From assembly GCF_030734285.1 (NCBI RefSeq), contig NZ_CP132294.1, positions 496,001-560,000 on the forward strand: DNA of 64,000 nucleotides, read 5' to 3'. The translations under genes and the position numbers were made by a program. A model generated the notes under the pieces. It was not told the DNA's origin. It ran no database searches and was given only the letters and a program-made list of their open reading frames with translations. Below are positions 20,814 to 31,030 of this stretch, in pieces. This DNA is from Natronococcus sp. AD-5. GTDB lineage: Archaea; Halobacteriota; Halobacteria; Halobacteriales; Natrialbaceae. Numbering within the stretch: position 1 is the first letter of the stretch; each line of letters starts with the position of its first letter.

Positions 20814-22952
20814 TTACTTCGAGAGGACGACGTTGTCGAGGTAGCTCGTGCCGCGTTCCGACCGGTACTCGCCGCGAATGCGGAGCGTATCCAGGTCGGC
20901 GAGGACGGTGCGGAGCGTCGCCTCGGTCGCCAGGGGCTCCCGGCTCGTCAAGTCGATCCAGCCGGCGTCGGCCGTGAGCGGCACCTCGAACGTGGACCAC
21001 TCCGCGCCCGGAGTGTCGTCTGAGCCGCGGAACTCGTAGACGAGCGTTTCCTCGCCGCTCGCGAGGAGGACGTCCCCGCCCTCTATCGGATCGGCGTCGA
21101 ACTGTCGATCTGTCCCCTCCTGGCGGAGATCGAACGAGAGCGTTCCGCCGTAGAACGCCTCGCGGGCGCCGAGGAACTTGAACGGAGCCTGATAGTACCA
21201 GGCGACGCCGTCGCGGTTCTCGGCGTCGCATATGTGACCGCCGGGGTTCCCGCCGCGACGGTGGTACTCGGGCCGGTCGCTCCCGCCGTTCCGCGAGACG
21301 AGCCAGCCGTCGGCGTCCGCGTCGAACGTGCTCTCGACCCGGTCGGGCGCCGACGTTTCCGGGTCGGCGTCCCTCGCGCGGATCGTCTTCGCGAACTGCT
21401 CCGCTCCGTGCTCGTCGTAGATGCCGATCGTCAGCTCCTCGCCCGACTCGTCGACCTCGACGGTCCCGAAGTTGGCGTACTCGCCCTTGGCGAAGAACGT
21501 CGTGGGGTTGAGCGGCGAGTACAGTTCGTCCGGTTTTCCGGCCGGCGCGCCGAGGGGGCCGGCGACCGCCTCGAAGAATTCGAACTCACCGTCGTCGTCC
21601 GGATCGAACGCCCCGACGATCGACTTGTGAACGTCTCCGGCGACGACGACCAGGTTCGAAATCCCCTCCGTCCGGACGTGCTCGACGAGGTCGAGGAGTT
21701 CCGACTCGTACCCGGTTCGATCCGCGGGCGTCGCCCACGAGTCGGACGGGTGGCCGAGCGGGGCCGGCGAGGCGAGCATCTTCCACGTCGCGTCGGACGC
21801 CGCGAGCGCCTCCTTCAGCCACTCGCGTTGCTCCCGGCCGAGGAGGGTCTTCGAGTCGCGTTCGACGTTCGGATCCCGATACTGCCGGGTATCGATGAGA
21901 AACAGTTCGACGTGTTTCCCCCATCGGAACGAGTCGTAGAACGTGTTGGATTCGCCCGGCGGACTGTCCTCGTCCCGATCGAGCGGCCAGTACTCTCGGA
22001 AGGCGCGCCGCCCCTCTGGCATCAGCGGCTCGATCGGGCCCGCGAAGTTGTTGATGACCTCGTGGTCGTCCCAGACGGTGTAGACCGACGTCGACTCGAG
22101 AAGCTCCCTGAGGTTCGTCCGCTCCGCGACCGCCGCCGGCGGATCGCGCATCTCCTTGTACTTGGCCCGGTAGATCTCGAGGGCCTCGTCGATCGGCGTG
22201 TTCTCGGTGACCTTCCCGGCCGGCGTCCGCGCGTCGGCGTAGATCGTGTCCCCGTGATAGAGGAAGAAGTCCGGCTCCCGCTCCGCGATCGTCCGCAGGC
22301 CGGGGAAGGGCGGCTCGACGGGATCGTCGCCGTATCCCCACGTGTCGCCGCTCCAGGCGAAGGTGACGCGCTTCTCGTCGGTCGGCGACGGCGCCGTGAC
22401 GAACGTGCCGCTCTCGATCTCGTCGGCGATCGCGTCCGCCGTCAGTTCGGCGCGCTCTCCCTCGTCGCTCTCCGGCAGATCGAGGTCGATCCGATCCGCC
22501 GCATCCGGTGACGCGGGTGGAACGTCTCGATCTCCTTGCCGACCGCGCTCGTCTCCCTCCCGATCGCGCCGCGGCGTCGCCCAGACGTAGTAGCGATACC
22601 GCGTGCCGGACGCGAGTTCCTGCAGTCGCACCTGTCCGGCGTAGTCGGTCTCTCCGTCGACCGTCGTCCGTTCGTATCCGGACTCGTCGTCCGACCCCTC
22701 GGCGCCGTACGCGACGTGGAGCGTCGCGTCGCGTTCGGCGCGCGTCCAGACGATCGCCGTCGTCGCGGTGACGTCGCCCGCGGCGACGCCGTGCGTGAGC
22801 GGTACGAAACCGTCGTCGTTATCGTCCGAGCCCGCCGCTCCGGCCGCCGATCCCGCGAGGCCGGCGGTCGTCGCGGCCGCGCCGATCGCTCGGAGAAACG
22901 TCCGTCGACCGCCCGTCGATTCGTCCCGTTCGGTGGCGTTGGTGTCTTCCAT
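20814..22952 (-). CDS. phoD: PhoD-type alkaline phosphatase with C-terminal accessory domain
   Basis: A 712-aa exported phosphodiesterase/phosphatase. A Tat signal (GGRRTFLRAIGAAATTAG) is followed by the PhoD N domain (THGVAAGDVTATTAIVWTRA). The metallophosphatase core has FLYHGDTIYADA, VWDDHEVINNF, FLIDTRQYRD and VVVAGDVHKSIVG, supplying Fe/Ca ligands. Residues of about 550-712 form an extra beta-rich domain (STFDADADGWLVSRNGGSD, WIDLTSREPL), probably carbohydrate-binding or laminin-like. It should release phosphate outside the cell. Confidence 0.92.
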   Translation of the reverse strand: MEDTNATERDESTGGRRTFLRAIGAAATTAGLAGSAAGAAGSDDNDDGFVPLTHGVAAGDVTATTAIVWTRAERDATLHVAYGAEGSDDESGYERTTVDGETDYAGQVRLQELASGTRYRYYVWATPRRDREGDERGRQGDRDVPPASPDAADRIDLDLPESDEGERAELTADAIADEIESGTFVTAPSPTDEKRVTFAWSGDTWGYGDDPVEPPFPGLRTIAEREPDFFLYHGDTIYADARTPAGKVTENTPIDEALEIYRAKYKEMRDPPAAVAERTNLRELLESTSVYTVWDDHEVINNFAGPIEPLMPEGRRAFREYWPLDRDEDSPPGESNTFYDSFRWGKHVELFLIDTRQYRDPNVERDSKTLLGREQREWLKEALAASDATWKMLASPAPLGHPSDSWATPADRTGYESELLDLVEHVRTEGISNLVVVAGDVHKSIVGAFDPDDDGEFEFFEAVAGPLGAPAGKPDELYSPLNPTTFFAKGEYANFGTVEVDESGEELTIGIYDEHGAEQFAKTIRARDADPETSAPDRVESTFDADADGWLVSRNGGSDRPEYHRRGGNPGGHICDAENRDGVAWYYQAPFKFLGAREAFYGGTLSFDLRQEGTDRQFDADPIEGGDVLLASGEETLVYEFRGSDDTPGAEWSTFEVPLTADAGWIDLTSREPLATEATLRTVLADLDTLRIRGEYRSERGTSYLDNVVLSK

Positions 22953-24410: not shown

Positions 24411-25532
24411 CTATCGCACCGTCAGCGACGCGTACGCCCGCTGGAGCCGATCGATCGCTCGATCGACGCCGATCGACGACCGGTGCTCGAGACAGCGCTC
24501 CTCGAACGCCGCGCGATCGGCGAGGACGCGCTCGATCGCGCGCGCGAACGACTCGTCGTCGCACGGCGGGTAGTGCAGCCCGGTCTCGCCGTCGCTCACG
24601 GTCTCCGCGAGCGCGCCCGCATCGACGGCGACGACCGGCGTGCCGCAGGCCATCGCCTCGAGCGCGACCATCCCGCGCGTCTCGACGGGGCTCGGGAACG
24701 CGAAGACGTCGAGCGCCGCGTACAACGCCGGCAGGTCGTCCCTGTCGAGAAACCCGAGGAAGCGCGCGTCGACGCCGAGCGCCGCAGCCCGCCGTTCGAG
24801 CGCGGGTCTGGCGGGGCCGTCGCCGCCGAAGACGACCGTGACGCGATCGGTCTCGAGTCGCGCCGCCGCCTCGAGCAGTTCCTGGAGGCGTTTCTCGTGA
24901 CCGTGGCGACCGGTGTAGCCGATCAGCGGGCGATCGGGCTCGAGGCCGTACCGATCGCGAAACCGCGTCGCGTCGACGGGCCGGAACCGCTCGGTGTCGA
25001 CGCCGTTGGGAACGACGCGGACGGGCGTCGAGACGCCGACGCGCTCGCGGACGTCGTCGCGGGTCGTCGTCGACGGGACGAGTACGAGGTCGGCGCGGTC
25101 GTAGAACCGGCGTTCGTACGCGGTCACGCCCCGTCCCACGAGATCGGCGAGTCGCTCCCCCGGTGCGACGTACGGCGCGTACGCGGCGGTCGGCGTGTGG
25201 TAGGACGCGACCAGCGGGAGCGCCGCCGTGCGCGCGTACCGCAGGGCGGCGAGGCCGATCGGAAACGGCGTGTGAGCGTGGACGACGTCGATTCGGGGAA
25301 GCGTCCGCGGAACGCGCGGCTGGCCGAGTCGGAACCCCTCGTAGAACGGAAAACCGACGCTCGGAAGGGGGTGTTCCCCGTCGCCGGGTTCGTAGCCCGC
25401 GGCGTCCGGGAAGACGACCTCCATTCGGCCCCCGCGCCGAGTCCACCGATCGCGCCAGGTGCGGACGGCGTAGGTAGTGCCGTTGACCGTCGGGAGGTAG
25501 GTGTCGGTGAAGGCGGCGACCCGTTCGAGCAT
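24411..25532 (-). CDS. GT4-family glycosyltransferase
   Basis: A 373-aa GT-B glycosyltransferase. N domain: FTDTYLPTVNGTTYAVRTW, VHAHTPFPIGLAALRYA. C domain: VVPNGVDTERF, IGYTGRHGHEKRLQELL, and the nucleotide-sugar motif PSPVETRGMVALEAMACG with its ExxxxxxxE glutamates. It resembles enzymes that glycosylate membrane lipids (diacylglycerol or phosphatidylinositol mannosyltransferase types). It is the last gene of a same-strand run and begins 57 bp after the PAP2 gene stop, so a lipid-linked acceptor is a reasonable guess. Confidence 0.88.
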   Translation of the reverse strand: MLERVAAFTDTYLPTVNGTTYAVRTWRDRWTRRGGRMEVVFPDAAGYEPGDGEHPLPSVGFPFYEGFRLGQPRVPRTLPRIDVVHAHTPFPIGLAALRYARTAALPLVASYHTPTAAYAPYVAPGERLADLVGRGVTAYERRFYDRADLVLVPSTTTRDDVRERVGVSTPVRVVPNGVDTERFRPVDATRFRDRYGLEPDRPLIGYTGRHGHEKRLQELLEAAARLETDRVTVVFGGDGPARPALERRAAALGVDARFLGFLDRDDLPALYAALDVFAFPSPVETRGMVALEAMACGTPVVAVDAGALAETVSDGETGLHYPPCDDESFARAIERVLADRAAFEERCLEHRSSIGVDRAIDRLQRAYASLTVR

Positions 25533-25589: not shown

Positions 25590-26429
25590 CTACCGGTGGC
25601 GGATCGAGGCCGCCCACCGCTCGAGGGAGATCCGTTCGGAGAGCGACCAGCGATCGACGAGCATGCCCGCGAGTTCGACGCAGACGTACGCGAGGACGGC
25701 CCCGGCGACGACGTCGATCCCCCAGTGGATCCCCAGGTACATCGTCGAGAACGCGACGCTGATCCCCAGCACGCCCGCGACGGGATACCAGCGCGGGTAG
25801 ACGCCCCGCGTTCGATGGGCGAGGATGGCGACGGTGGCCGCGAGCGAGGTGTGCAACGACGGGAAGACGTTCGTGTTGCGGTTGACTTCCCGTGTGAGGT
25901 GCTGGTACTGCGGGTACGTATCGTACAGTAGGGCCTGGACTTCGGGCATCACGTTCCGCGGCCCGTAGGCGATGACGAAGACGTACAACAGGAGTCCGAG
26001 CGCGTAGTTGAGCGTGTACGCCGTCAGCAGCTCCCGCAGCGGCCGAGTGTTCGACAGCGCGAAGTAGGCGACGACGGGGAAGACGAGCAGGAAGACGTAG
26101 CCGTAGATGTAGATGAACGAGAAGTACGACGTCAGCGCCGCCGTCTCGTAGGACTGGAGCCAGAAGATGAATCGGCCTTCGATCTCGTAAATCTGCCACG
26201 TGGGGTTCCAGTCGATTATCCACGAGAGGTCGGGGACGACCTCTCTGGCGACGCTGTTGCCGAGCAATACGGCGGCGAGGACGACCGTGACCGGCGTGGC
26301 CGCACGCACCCGGTCTTTCCACTCGACGCGGGTCTCTCGGAGCCGGTAGCGGCCGACGAAGAGGCCGAGTCCGGCGAGTATCATGAGCGTCACGACGATA
26401 ACCAGCTGGACGAGTACCTGGACCAGCAT
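25590..26429 (-). CDS. PAP2/Aur1-like membrane phosphotransferase (copy A)
   Basis: A 279-aa protein with about six transmembrane helices. The PAP2 superfamily active site is present: GPRN (156-159), FPSLHTS with His193, and STMYLGIHWGIDV with His235 and Asp239. The PSLH variant and overall layout fit the inositolphosphorylceramide-synthase (Aur1) branch, which transfers or hydrolyses lipid phosphate. Its ATG overlaps the stop of the solute-binding lipoprotein gene by one base (TGATG), so translation is coupled. A close paralogue is at 28260-29132. Confidence 0.87.
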   Translation of the reverse strand: MLVQVLVQLVIVVTLMILAGLGLFVGRYRLRETRVEWKDRVRAATPVTVVLAAVLLGNSVAREVVPDLSWIIDWNPTWQIYEIEGRFIFWLQSYETAALTSYFSFIYIYGYVFLLVFPVVAYFALSNTRPLRELLTAYTLNYALGLLLYVFVIAYGPRNVMPEVQALLYDTYPQYQHLTREVNRNTNVFPSLHTSLAATVAILAHRTRGVYPRWYPVAGVLGISVAFSTMYLGIHWGIDVVAGAVLAYVCVELAGMLVDRWSLSERISLERWAASIRHR

Positions 26430-28195
26430 CAGCGTCTCACCCGGAGCGTTCCGTCGTCGTACTGGAAACCGGCGTCTTCGAACGCTTTCCTGGCGGCCTC
26501 GACGTCGAGTTCGCCGTCGGTACCGGAGAAGGGCACCTCCGGATCCTCGCCGGCCCAGGCGAGGTCGTCGGGCGTCCACTCGTCGGTTACGGGGGTCGCG
26601 GTCGGGCGAGCGTAGCCGTGGAACACGTCCTGGACCAGCCACTCCTTGTCGAGCAAGCTGGCAACGGCCCGTCGGAACCGCGGGTTGCCGAACGGCGCCC
26701 GGCGCGTGTTAAATCCGACGTGGTAGAACGTCCAGGACGGCGACTCGACGAGGTCCGTCCCCTCGACTGACTCGACGTCGTCGAGGACGTAGGTCTCGAG
26801 GGTCGAACTCGTGACGTCCGCGCTGTCCGTGGAGACGAGTTCGATCGCCGACGTGCTACGGGGATCGATCTGAATCCGCACCTCGTCGACGGTCGGTTCG
26901 GGCAGATCCACCCCGTTTCGGAGCGTGAAGTGATCCTCGAAGCGCTCGAGCGTGAGGTGTTCGCGCTCGGTCCGGCTCCCGAACCGGAAGGGACCGCTGC
27001 CGATCGGCGGGACGTTGTCCGTGGTGATCGCCTCGGTCGTCCCCCCCGCGACGCGAACGCCGGGGACGGTCGCCGGCGTCGCGCGCTCGCTCCAGACGTG
27101 CTCGGGGAGGATCGGCACCGTCAGCGCGCGCTCGGCGACGGCCCCGCCCGCGTCGACGCTGAACTCGAGCTCGTAGTCCCGGCCGTCCCGTTTCTCGGCG
27201 CCCTCGACGATCGCCGCCGGCCCTCGATACTGGGGCGGGGGCGACGGACTTTCACCCCCGCCGAGTTCGGTGTCCCGGAGCAAGTCGTAGGTGAAGACGA
27301 CGTCGTCGGCGGTGAGCGCTTCGCCGTCGTGGAAGCGACAGCCCTCGCGGAGTTCGACGCGGAGGGTTCCGTCCTCGAACTTCCAGTCCTCGGCGAGCCA
27401 GGGCTCGAGTTCCCCGTCGCGTTCGGTCGCCAGCGAGTCGTACAGCAGGCCGATAACGGGGTCGTGATCGCGGTACTCGACCGTGAGCGGATTGACGTTC
27501 TCCGAGGGACGCGCGTCCGTGTGGACGGCCCGCAGGCGATCGGTGCCCCCCCGTGGCGTGAGACCGAGATAGCCGAGCCGAGTCGCCAGGTGGCCCTCCT
27601 CCCAGCCGTCGAAGCGGTCGGTTCTGACCATCCGGTGCTCCTCGGGGATGCAGATCGGCACGAACGGCTGTTCGCGAGCGACCTCCTCGAGCAGTTCCTC
27701 GACGGCCGCCTCACGCTCGTCGCCGTCCGTTCGGCGCTGCTCCTCGAGTAATTCGTCGATCCGCAGGTTCGCGTACCCGAAGGGGTTCTGCCAGCCGGAC
27801 TCCTCGGCGTACAGCGAGTGCAACGCCTCGTAGAGGAAGTCCGGATCGGTCCCGCCCGGATGCCGGCCGACGTAGAGGTCGAAGTCGTGGTTGATCAAGA
27901 TCGCCCGCAGAAACTCCTCGTTCGAACGCATCTCGATCGAGGCATCGACGCCGGCGGCCTCGAGGACGGCGGCGATCTCTCGCGCGATTCGGATGCTCTC
28001 CCGGTCGCCGTCGGCGGGGACGGTCGTGATCGTAAGCGAGAGCTGGTCGACGTCGTTCCGGTTGACGACGGTTCGGACCTGTCGAACGCAACCGCCCGTC
28101 GCGGCGGTCAGTCCGGCGGTTCCGGCGAGGACGGCACGACGACTGTAGCCGCGTTCGACGGACGTATCACCCGAAACGGCCTCTCGCGCAGTCAT
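26429..28195 (-). CDS. Circularly permuted SBP family 5 lipoprotein (copy A)
   Basis: A 588-aa Tat lipoprotein: RR at 19-20, lipobox ending in Cys36. Segment order is unusual. Residues 51-200 (LSLTITTVPADGDRESI, INHDFDLYVGRHPGGTDPDF, REQPFVPICIPEEHRMV) match the C-terminal third of DppA/OppA-type binding proteins. Residues 220-588 match their N-terminal two thirds: NVNPLTVEYRDHDPVIGLLY, LREGCRFHDGEALTADDVVF, PIGSGPFRF, FGNPRFRRAVASLLDKEWLV, and finally DVEAARKAFEDAGF. The two termini would join exactly as in a normal family 5 protein. No permease or ATPase is nearby. Coupled to the PAP2 gene. Confidence 0.85.
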   Translation of the reverse strand: MTAREAVSGDTSVERGYSRRAVLAGTAGLTAATGGCVRQVRTVVNRNDVDQLSLTITTVPADGDRESIRIAREIAAVLEAAGVDASIEMRSNEEFLRAILINHDFDLYVGRHPGGTDPDFLYEALHSLYAEESGWQNPFGYANLRIDELLEEQRRTDGDEREAAVEELLEEVAREQPFVPICIPEEHRMVRTDRFDGWEEGHLATRLGYLGLTPRGGTDRLRAVHTDARPSENVNPLTVEYRDHDPVIGLLYDSLATERDGELEPWLAEDWKFEDGTLRVELREGCRFHDGEALTADDVVFTYDLLRDTELGGGESPSPPPQYRGPAAIVEGAEKRDGRDYELEFSVDAGGAVAERALTVPILPEHVWSERATPATVPGVRVAGGTTEAITTDNVPPIGSGPFRFGSRTEREHLTLERFEDHFTLRNGVDLPEPTVDEVRIQIDPRSTSAIELVSTDSADVTSSTLETYVLDDVESVEGTDLVESPSWTFYHVGFNTRRAPFGNPRFRRAVASLLDKEWLVQDVFHGYARPTATPVTDEWTPDDLAWAGEDPEVPFSGTDGELDVEAARKAFEDAGFQYDDGTLRVRR

Positions 28196-28259
28196 TCGAT
28201 CGATACCTTCAGTTCAGCTATGACGATACAACAGTATTGCGCTGTCGCGTACCGCCCGG

Positions 28260-29132
28260 TCACTCGGTGTCACGACCCCGTTCGTCCAGTCGCCGCTCCG
28301 CGTGCTCGAGTAGTTCCGCGAGCGACCAGCGATCGACGAGGTGCGTCGAGAGCGCGACGCAGGTCACCGCCAGCACGAGGCCGGCGGCGACGTCGATCCC
28401 CCAGTGGATCCCCAGGTACATCGTCGAGATCGCGACGCTGACCGCGAGCACGATCGCGACGGGGAACCACTTCGGATAGCTCGAGCGGGTCTGGTAGGCG
28501 AACATCGCGACGGTGGCCGCGAGCGAGGTGTGCAACGACGGGAAGACGTTGTCGTAGCTGTTGACCTCCCGGGTGAGGTGCCTGTACTCGGGGCTGTTGT
28601 CGTACAGCATCGTCACCGTCACCTCCTCCGGCATCATGTTTCGCGGACCGTAGGCGATGACCAGCAGGTAGAGGACGAGTCCGATGACGTAGTTGAGCGA
28701 GTACGCCGTCAGTAACCGCCGGAAGATCCGGGTATCGGAAAGCGCGAAGTACGCGATGACGGGAAAGACGAGCATGAACGTGTAACCGTAGACGTAGATC
28801 GCCGAGAAGTACGCCGTTAGCTCGTCGGTCGCGATCGACTGGAAGATCAGGACGAACTCCCCCTCGAGGCGGTAGAACGTCTCGGTCATGTGGAGCCCGA
28901 TCTTGCCGGAGATGTCCTCGCCCTGCTGGCGCATGATCCTGTTGAGCACCAGGACGGCGAGCAGGGTGACGATCGTCGGCGCCGACACTCGAAGTCGGGA
29001 ACGCCACGCCGCCTTCGTCTCGAGGAGGCGCTCGCGGCCGACGAAGACGGCGATCGAGACCAGGAGCGCGATTGTGACGACGACGAAGACCTGCGTCAAC
29101 AGCTCGGTGAGTATCGTTCGTTCGGGGATCAT
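28260..29132 (-). CDS. PAP2/Aur1-like membrane phosphotransferase (copy B)
   Basis: A 290-aa paralogue of copy A, with the same six-helix layout and motifs: GPRN (162-165), FPSLHTS with His201, and STMYLGIHWGIDV with His243 and Asp247. It starts 5 bp after the stop of the second permuted binding-protein gene. Conserved loops around EVN-NVFPSLHTSLAATVA are nearly identical in both copies, while the first 90 residues differ more. The substrate is probably a lipid phosphate or lipid-linked phosphoalcohol (inference). Confidence 0.87.
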   Translation of the reverse strand: MIPERTILTELLTQVFVVVTIALLVSIAVFVGRERLLETKAAWRSRLRVSAPTIVTLLAVLVLNRIMRQQGEDISGKIGLHMTETFYRLEGEFVLIFQSIATDELTAYFSAIYVYGYTFMLVFPVIAYFALSDTRIFRRLLTAYSLNYVIGLVLYLLVIAYGPRNMMPEEVTVTMLYDNSPEYRHLTREVNSYDNVFPSLHTSLAATVAMFAYQTRSSYPKWFPVAIVLAVSVAISTMYLGIHWGIDVAAGLVLAVTCVALSTHLVDRWSLAELLEHAERRLDERGRDTE

Positions 29133-29137
29133 TGTGC

Positions 29138-31030
29138 TTACAGGCGGAGTCGCCCCTGATCGTCGTACCGGAACTCGTTCGCGAACGCTTCCCTGGCGGC
29201 GTCGACGTCGAGTTCGCCGTCGGAGCCGAAAAACGGCGTCGCCGGATCCTCGTCGTCTTCGTCGCCCCAGACGAGTTCGTCGGGTACCCACTCGTCCGAC
29301 AGCGGGACCGAAATGGGATCCGCGTGGTTGCCGAACACGTCGTCGACGATCCACGCCTTGTCGAGCAGCCGGGAGACGAGGCGTCGAGCGCGCGGGGTAC
29401 TGAACGCCCCGGTGCGGGTGTTGAACCCGACGTGGTAGAACGTTTCCGACTGCTGCGGCCCGAGCCACGTGATGTCGCCTCCCTCGTCGTCATCGAGCCT
29501 GTTCTTGAGCGCGTGCGCGTTGAGCATCGAGGCCGTGACGTCCGCGCTGTTGTTTACGACGCGGTCGACCGCGGTGCCGCCGGGGTCAATCCCGAACGTG
29601 ACCGACTCGAGATCGCCGACGTCGGGAAGCCCGTCCTCATCTCGCGTGAAGTGCTCGTCGTTGCGCTCGAGCGTGAGCGACTCGCGCTCGCTGTTGCTCA
29701 CGAATCGGAACAGGCCGCTACCGATGGGCGGGATGTTACTCATGGTGACGAGGCCCCACTCTCCCTGCGAGGCGGTGTCGGTCTCGGATCGGGACTTGAC
29801 CTGACTGCGCCACCGGTGTGCGGGAAGGATGGGCACGGTCAGCGCACGCTTGGCGACGGACTCGACGTTAGTCGTCACGTCGATCCGGAGCTTGCGGGAG
29901 TGTTCGCGGAGGAAGTCCTTGATGACGATGTCTTCGTCGGGATCGTCGATCACCGAAACGCGGCCCCGGTACCGCGGTGCGGGAGAGGGAACGTCCGCGT
30001 TGCCGAGCGAGGTGTCCTGGAGGAACTGATAGGTGAACCTGACGTCCTCGGCGGTCACGTATCTGTCCTCCTCGCTCTCCTCGTTGTCGTGGAACGGACA
30101 CTCCTCGCGGAGCTCGATGTGGAGACTCCCGTCGTCCCACTCGACGTCCTTGGCGAGCCAGGACTCGAGTTCTCCGTCGCGTTCGGTCAGCAGCGAGTCG
30201 TACACCAGGTCGAGGATCATCCCTCGGTCCCGGATCGTCGCGGAGAGCGGATTCAGGTTGCGTGTCGGCCACGTATCCGTAATGAGCGCGCGCAACTGGT
30301 CGACGCCGGGTTCCGGATCGAGGTCGAGAAACCCGTACCGCGTCGGGAAGTGTCCTGCGCCCCCATCGTCGTCCCCGTCGCCCTCGTCGCCGTTCCAGGC
30401 GCCGAAAGTGTCGGTCCGGGCGACCCGGTACTCCTCGGGGATACAGATGGAATCGAACGGCTTCATCTCGACCAGTTTCTCGAGCAGATCGGCGATGACG
30501 TCTTTACGGGTATCGCCATCGCCGGCCCGTCGCTGCTCTTCGAGTAACTCGTCGACGGTCGGGATCTCGGACGCTCCCTCGGACGGGACCTCGGGCGGAC
30601 TCATAGACGGGCTTTCATCGAACCCGAAGAGGTTCTGCCAGCCCCGCTCGTCGGCGTACTTGGAGTGGAGAGCGCCGTAGAGAAAGTCCGGATCGATACC
30701 ACCCGGATGCTGACCGACGTAGAGGTCGAAGTCGTGGTTGATCAGGATCGTCTCGTGGAACTCCGAGGGCGAACGCATGTCGATGGAGACGTTGGCACCG
30801 ACGGCTTTGAGGTTGGCCTCGAGATGGCGGGCGATCCGGACGGCTTCTCTGTCGTTGTCCGCGGGGACCGTCGTTATGGAGAGGGCGAGGCGGTCTGTAA
30901 CATCCTGACCGACGACGCTTTCGACGCTGTCGATACAGCCGCTGGTCGAGAGGGTAAGGCCAGCGGCTGCGCCGGCGAGAACGGACCGCCGACTAACGCC
31001 GTCGGTTGGATTAGTTGAATTGCGATTCAT
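29138..31030 (-). CDS. Circularly permuted SBP family 5 lipoprotein (copy B)
   Basis: A 630-aa paralogue of copy A with the same permuted order. Tat signal SRRSVLAGAAAGLTLSTSGC (lipid-attached Cys32). Then come the SBP C-terminal segment (LALSITTVPADNDREAVRIA, INHDFDLYVGQHPGGIDPDF) and the N-terminal segments (RNLNPLSATIRDRGMILDLV, IPPIGSGLFRFV, DVDAAREAFANEF). It carries acidic insertions, for example DEGDGDDDGG. Start at MNRNSTNPTD; a ttatata element about 40 bp upstream on the minus strand is a likely promoter for the whole run. Ligand unknown. Confidence 0.85.
   Translation of the reverse strand: MNRNSTNPTDGVSRRSVLAGAAAGLTLSTSGCIDSVESVVGQDVTDRLALSITTVPADNDREAVRIARHLEANLKAVGANVSIDMRSPSEFHETILINHDFDLYVGQHPGGIDPDFLYGALHSKYADERGWQNLFGFDESPSMSPPEVPSEGASEIPTVDELLEEQRRAGDGDTRKDVIADLLEKLVEMKPFDSICIPEEYRVARTDTFGAWNGDEGDGDDDGGAGHFPTRYGFLDLDPEPGVDQLRALITDTWPTRNLNPLSATIRDRGMILDLVYDSLLTERDGELESWLAKDVEWDDGSLHIELREECPFHDNEESEEDRYVTAEDVRFTYQFLQDTSLGNADVPSPAPRYRGRVSVIDDPDEDIVIKDFLREHSRKLRIDVTTNVESVAKRALTVPILPAHRWRSQVKSRSETDTASQGEWGLVTMSNIPPIGSGLFRFVSNSERESLTLERNDEHFTRDEDGLPDVGDLESVTFGIDPGGTAVDRVVNNSADVTASMLNAHALKNRLDDDEGGDITWLGPQQSETFYHVGFNTRTGAFSTPRARRLVSRLLDKAWIVDDVFGNHADPISVPLSDEWVPDELVWGDEDDEDPATPFFGSDGELDVDAAREAFANEFRYDDQGRLRL

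Follow-up and report, generated by a model that had tools for sequence, protein, structure and literature searches.

Substrate-binding proteins of family 5 (SBP5; SBP_bac_5, PF00496), to which DppA, OppA and NikA belong, are among the commonest and best-studied components of importers and are handled as a single topology. Family members such as AppA (1xoc) and CtaP (5isu) share homologous segments, the fold, export and anchoring with the proteins described here, which we call B-type. The B-type proteins differ from the described family in a permuted segment order and in the lack of Dpp/Opp transporter genes nearby; such co-encoding is found in a second, more distant set of permuted proteins, designated A-type. 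The gene coupled to the B-type genes belongs to the PAP2_3 family (PF14378), shows distant similarity to PgpB and undecaprenyl-diphosphatase models and keeps the catalytic signature; it differs from known PAP2_3 genes in its coupling to a binding-lipoprotein gene and does not reach the NCBIfam equivalog cut-offs. The circularly permuted proteins engineered for binding-protein biosensors are likewise re-cut at a loop, but they are artificial, whereas the permuted SBP5 family is natural and conserved.

The permuted SBP5 proteins are a topological variant homologous to SBP5, one branch of which occurs in a new genomic setting. The first-pass annotation of this DNA knew of no description of the architecture, and none was found in the open-access literature (subscription papers and preprints lay outside the scope of the search), so that a large permuted family in haloarchaea and some bacteria has apparently gone unreported. 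It has stayed hidden because automatic annotation names its members just "ABC transporter substrate-binding protein". We regard as probable an account in which the proteins are permuted SBP5s, belong to a broader set linked to ABC transporters and, in the B-type branch, have moved away from ABC import into a partnership with a PAP2 enzyme.

Segment order and predicted fold of the two lipoproteins

The window, i.e. the whole stretch of DNA analysed, comprises 64,000 nucleotides of Natronococcus sp. AD-5 (contig NZ_CP132294.1, positions 496,001 to 560,000), whose closest named relative is Natronococcus pandeyae (82% identity). Two paralogous lipoproteins with 49% identity to each other, P0001 and P0002, are encoded on its minus strand:

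26429..28195 (-): P0001, B-type circularly permuted SBP5 Tat lipoprotein, 588 aa (profile and structure searches, AlphaFold model)
27617..28057 (-): P0001 residues 47-193, C-terminal segment of a normal SBP5 (profile positions 391-536; profile match)
26450..27508 (-): P0001 residues 230-582, N-terminal segment of a normal SBP5 (profile positions 71-385; profile match), with the EAARKAFEDAG helix at its end
29138..31030 (-): P0002, paralogous B-type circularly permuted SBP5 Tat lipoprotein, 630 aa from the ATG (profile and sequence searches)
30404..30895 (-): P0002 residues 46-209, SBP5 C-terminal segment in first place (profile positions 394-538; profile match)
29180..30304 (-): P0002 residues 243-617, SBP5 N-terminal segment in second place (profile positions 59-376; profile match)

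Both proteins carry a Tat motif and a lipobox (RR19-20...GC36 in P0001), as had been noticed at the outset, and both match PF00496 (180.4 bits for P0001 and 84.2 bits for P0002, curated cut-off 32.4), as do 58 of 58 aligned relatives. By eye, P0001 has a glycine at what we take, from presumed reference numbering, to be the position equivalent to the peptide-binding aspartate of DppA/OppA.

The profile positions listed above refer to a normal-SBP5 profile derived from 13 colinear family members, along which the two segments of P0001 and P0002 follow each other in swapped order; the third permuted copy of the host genome shows the same order. In the three copies, the N-terminal block matches the SBP5 C-terminal segment at 32-56 bits, and when the chains are rotated near residue 210 the two matches merge into one, of 290 bits for P0001, 162 bits for P0002 and 223 bits for the third copy. 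P0001 thus contains each segment once, swapped, without loss or duplication, and its match becomes continuous upon rotation. The same swap was obtained by phmmer against the solved structure 1xoc (P0001 residues 249-535 to 50-311 and 51-198 to 359-502) and in solved-structure searches with independent permuted members, and a search with only the N-terminal 210 residues of P0001 gave weak matches to SBP5 C-terminal segments (best E 0.0004). Solved chains matching in permuted order were not present among the matches listed. A linker at about residues 194-229 of P0001 joins the old N- and C-terminal regions, and the cut lies in the loop that follows the last helix of the middle segment, just past the EAARKAFEDAG block with which the first-pass annotation had let the chain end.

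Rotation also excludes chance as the source of the swapped order: the best single-domain score rose by a median of 52 bits across 91 permuted proteins, while in a control set of 34 held-out colinear SBP5 proteins the gain never exceeded 4.5 bits. Nineteen of the 91 permuted proteins gained no more than 10 bits because HMMER splits the match even after rotation; their profile matches still appear in swapped order. The best Pfam stretch of P0001 alone covers profile positions 1-285 of 368, which would suit a colinear SBP5 that has lost its C-terminal part and carries an unrelated N-terminal domain. This reading is very improbable, since the N-terminal block (residues 47-193 in P0001) is homologous to the SBP5 C-terminal segment in all three copies of the host genome, contradicting an unrelated domain, and since the structure searches with independent members agree with swapped segments.

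The AlphaFold (AF2) model of P0001 (pLDDT 88.2, pTM 0.85) was compared with known structures by sequential Foldseek, and the matches listed were SBP5 proteins. The alignments mostly spanned about 400 columns, with target TM values of no more than 0.53 among the matches listed, whereas a colinear haloarchaeal control, modelled with lower confidence (pLDDT 78.6), gave about 500 columns and TM values up to 0.86. The model of P0001 thus shows an SBP5 fold, aligned only in part by this sequential comparison, and not a colinear one. When predicted secondary-structure strings were rotated, the best cut fell at residue 212 with a score of 281.5, as against 188.8 for the native order and a mean of 210.5 (s.d. 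30.3) over the rotations. Because the segment order is swapped and the TM values are low compared with the control, the B-type proteins are to be regarded as a permuted variant and not as ordinary SBP_bac_5 members. Profile order, rotation with controls and the rotated secondary structure, together with the conservation described below, bear out the swapped blocks and the circular permutation proposed from the first reading, and establish P0001 and P0002 as circularly permuted SBP5 proteins, for which Tat export, a lipid anchor and a two-lobed binding-protein fold are predicted.

Distribution, transporter linkage and origin of the permuted proteins

The SBP5 ORFs collected comprise 188 permuted and 86 colinear ones; among the 13 SBP5 genes of the host genome, 4 are permuted and 9 colinear. 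An assembly artefact or a chance re-joining in one genome, for which no supporting point was found, is contradicted by the recurrence of the same order across many genomes and two domains of life (188 ORFs) and has a negligible probability; the first-pass annotation had dismissed a local assembly error on the strength of the two paralogues. The search for the same order in other haloarchaea, which it had proposed, revealed a widespread family: close (B-type) relatives occur in 264 of 391 Halobacteria genomes and in 69 of 86 genera, Haloferax (L081-L097) among them. A-type proteins are also common in haloarchaea and were found on Alphaproteobacterial plasmids (Bacteria were sampled via plasmids only), where profile order shows the permutation in proteins of Nitratireductor, Ketogulonicigenium, Roseomonas and Maritalea; the Nitratireductor protein shares 38% identity over 98% of its length with a protein of Halalkalicoccus jeotgali. 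A Neorhizobium locus (L269) shows the swapped order, but its frame is broken. A natural and widespread permuted branch in two domains of life offers a test of lobe connectivity and anchor position in transporter docking.

In a phylum sample beyond the class Halobacteria only colinear-type matches were obtained, and the haloarchaea-only family that this suggested was dropped in view of the permuted Alphaproteobacterial members. Candidates from DHVE2/Thermoplasmata (L107), Bacillus-type genomes (L108, L272) and the class of genome G413 were rejected as colinear by profile order; in the last class the matches span the N-segment only, except for one tandem fusion (L214, see below). The DHVE2 archaeon encodes a 1401-aa ORF (L107:4674-8876) in which a colinear SBP5 start is combined with about 800 further residues.

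All 10 A-type loci first examined encode two Dpp/Opp-like permeases and two ATPases, and at further A-type loci a permease lies downstream on the same strand in 13 of 18 cases. The bacterial A-type genes head annotated ABC operons, and the host genome's own A-type gene (L154) also lies within a Dpp/Opp-type ABC operon. Since permuted SBP5s head complete operons of this type, permutation does not preclude linkage to a transporter, and judging from these operons the A-type proteins have most likely kept both ligand binding and the supply of an importer. The ABC-linked permuted SBPs (L159-L168, L154, L267, L268, L270, L271) share the permutation with B-type, their cut falling in the same loop or no more than about 30 residues away, but differ from B-type in heading complete ABC operons and in having no adjoining PAP2 gene. 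On the Alphaproteobacterial plasmids, the permuted-SBP ABC operons at L268, L269, L270 and L271 have hydantoinase/oxoprolinase, M28 peptidase or gamma-glutamylcyclotransferase-like genes in their vicinity, a hint of ligands derived from amino acids or peptides.

In trees of the un-rotated sequences, B-type was monophyletic (100%) and placed near the main A-type group. The bacterial permuted proteins nest inside this main group in at least two places, suggesting a gene transfer of A-type SBPs between Archaea and Bacteria, which may have taken either direction. A second permuted group of 8 rows, L154 being one of them, is placed amid colinear haloarchaeal SBP5s, and in the tree with bacterial rows added the A and B branches no longer form one clade; a single permuted clade was not rejected by the AU test (p = 0.12). 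Two members of the second group (L205:5140-6885 and L206:5002-6774) carry an EAARxxLEEAG-type helix at the N-terminus, while the same helix is located at the C-terminus in L154:5960-7942 and in the main group, from which it follows that the cut differs by about 30 residues (by eye). At L214:6810-9887 (genome G471, class of G413), a 1026-aa ORF consists of two complete colinear SBP5s fused in tandem; it is the kind of intermediate needed for permutation by duplication, as an illustration and not an ancestor. This fusion, together with a cut at one loop that may have recurred, makes the duplication route to permutation testable. It is conceivable, though rather doubtful, that SBP5 was permuted more than once at nearly the same loop in different haloarchaeal lineages, with one form exchanged with Alphaproteobacteria, and that in addition one permuted branch, no longer tied to a transporter, became the partner of a PAP2 lipid phosphatase that faces outwards, an envelope system not described before.

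The PAP2 partner and the possible role of the B-type proteins

Each of the two lipoprotein genes of the window is followed by a PAP2 gene:

25590..26429 (-): PAP2_3-family membrane protein; its ATG and the stop codon of the P0001 gene upstream overlap (TGATG; profile match, junction sequence)
28260..29132 (-): another membrane protein of the PAP2_3 family, with its start 5 nt past the P0002 stop codon (profile match, junction sequence)

A PAP2 gene adjoins the B-type gene in 65 of 67 named loci (the two others being L098, at a contig end, and L092) and in none of 22 colinear-SBP5 loci. Conversely, a Dpp/Opp permease was found near the B-type gene in 0 of 67 loci, compared with 12 of the 22 colinear-SBP5 control loci. 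Among permuted genes with room downstream, PAP2 follows on the same strand in 95 of 115, commonly with a TGATG or TAATG overlap. Close PAP2 homologues were absent from the scanned haloarchaeal genomes that lack a B-type SBP, and three scanned genomes with a B-type SBP encode a PAP2 homologue at 50-54% identity. The signature YGPRN, PSLH, GIHWxxD is 98-100% conserved in 66 partner proteins, which, as predicted from sequence, keep the catalytic Arg, two His and Asp; across 58 B-type proteins, 30 residues are invariant and form a conserved core.

We tentatively propose, as a plausible reading that falls short of probable, that the B-type protein is an SBP that has departed from ABC import and works with the PAP2 enzyme, as its ligand-capturing subunit, in the metabolism of cell-surface glycans or lipids. 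The lipoprotein would capture its ligand at the cell surface and present, or take away, a head group or glycan that is soluble in water, and the PAP2 enzyme would hydrolyse a lipid-linked phosphate, or transfer it, at the outer membrane face. In the SBP5 fold, the permutation shifts the lipid anchor from the lobe with the normal N-terminus to the other lobe, and this shift may alter how the B-type SBP faces its partner. Against a joint function it may be held that adjacency can stem from shared regulation alone; furthermore, PAP2_3 is a broad family, so that membership fixes no lipid substrate. Under the proposed reading, the PAP2-linked branch is well suited to studying how a binding protein is drawn out of transport into another role.

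The B-type protein could instead feed a distant Dpp permease as an orphan importer SBP, the PAP2 protein being a neighbour with an unrelated envelope task. Permuted relatives do occur in ABC operons, the host genome has Dpp/Opp operons elsewhere, and orphan SBPs that share permeases exist; we nevertheless consider this unlikely in view of the nearly universal and often overlapping PAP2 link and of the permease link missing in 67 of 67 loci.

A sensor, or an envelope-structural protein that senses a surface ligand or holds envelope enzymes together without delivery to PAP2, would account for a lipoprotein that keeps its conserved core yet lacks a transporter, and for the genes of apparent surface-glycan type close by in many loci. 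This too we judge unlikely, as neither a signalling domain nor a kinase gene was recognised among the share of neighbours that was scanned. Association with the PAP2 enzyme remains our preferred reading.

In other haloarchaea, the neighbours of the B-type genes include ASST-like proteins (22 of 46 loci), PMT_2-like GT-C proteins (28 of 46) and an exported multi-TM protein (22 of 46) which carries a WPYTS motif and belongs to no Pfam or NCBIfam family. All three lie beside the B-type pair at L061:115-2884, L058:352-4848 and similar loci outside the Natrialbales, the window's own group, and such envelope-type neighbours, which favour the proposed reading, are missing from most Natrialbales loci, which speaks against it. 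In the window, a GT4-type glycosyltransferase gene (24411-25532, minus strand) comes after the first SBP-PAP2 pair, with a similar gene in 5 of 21 Natrialbales loci, and the gene at 20817-22952 (minus strand) encodes a haloarchaeal PhoD-like phosphatase that carries a Laminin_B domain at its C-terminus (E 9.6e-15). Upstream of the host genome's third permuted SBP-PAP2 pair lies an FtsZ/CetZ-like gene (L151:4882-6036), assigned by its N-terminal motif, and a gene of this kind also occurs near the SBP-PAP2 pair in L065 and L096.
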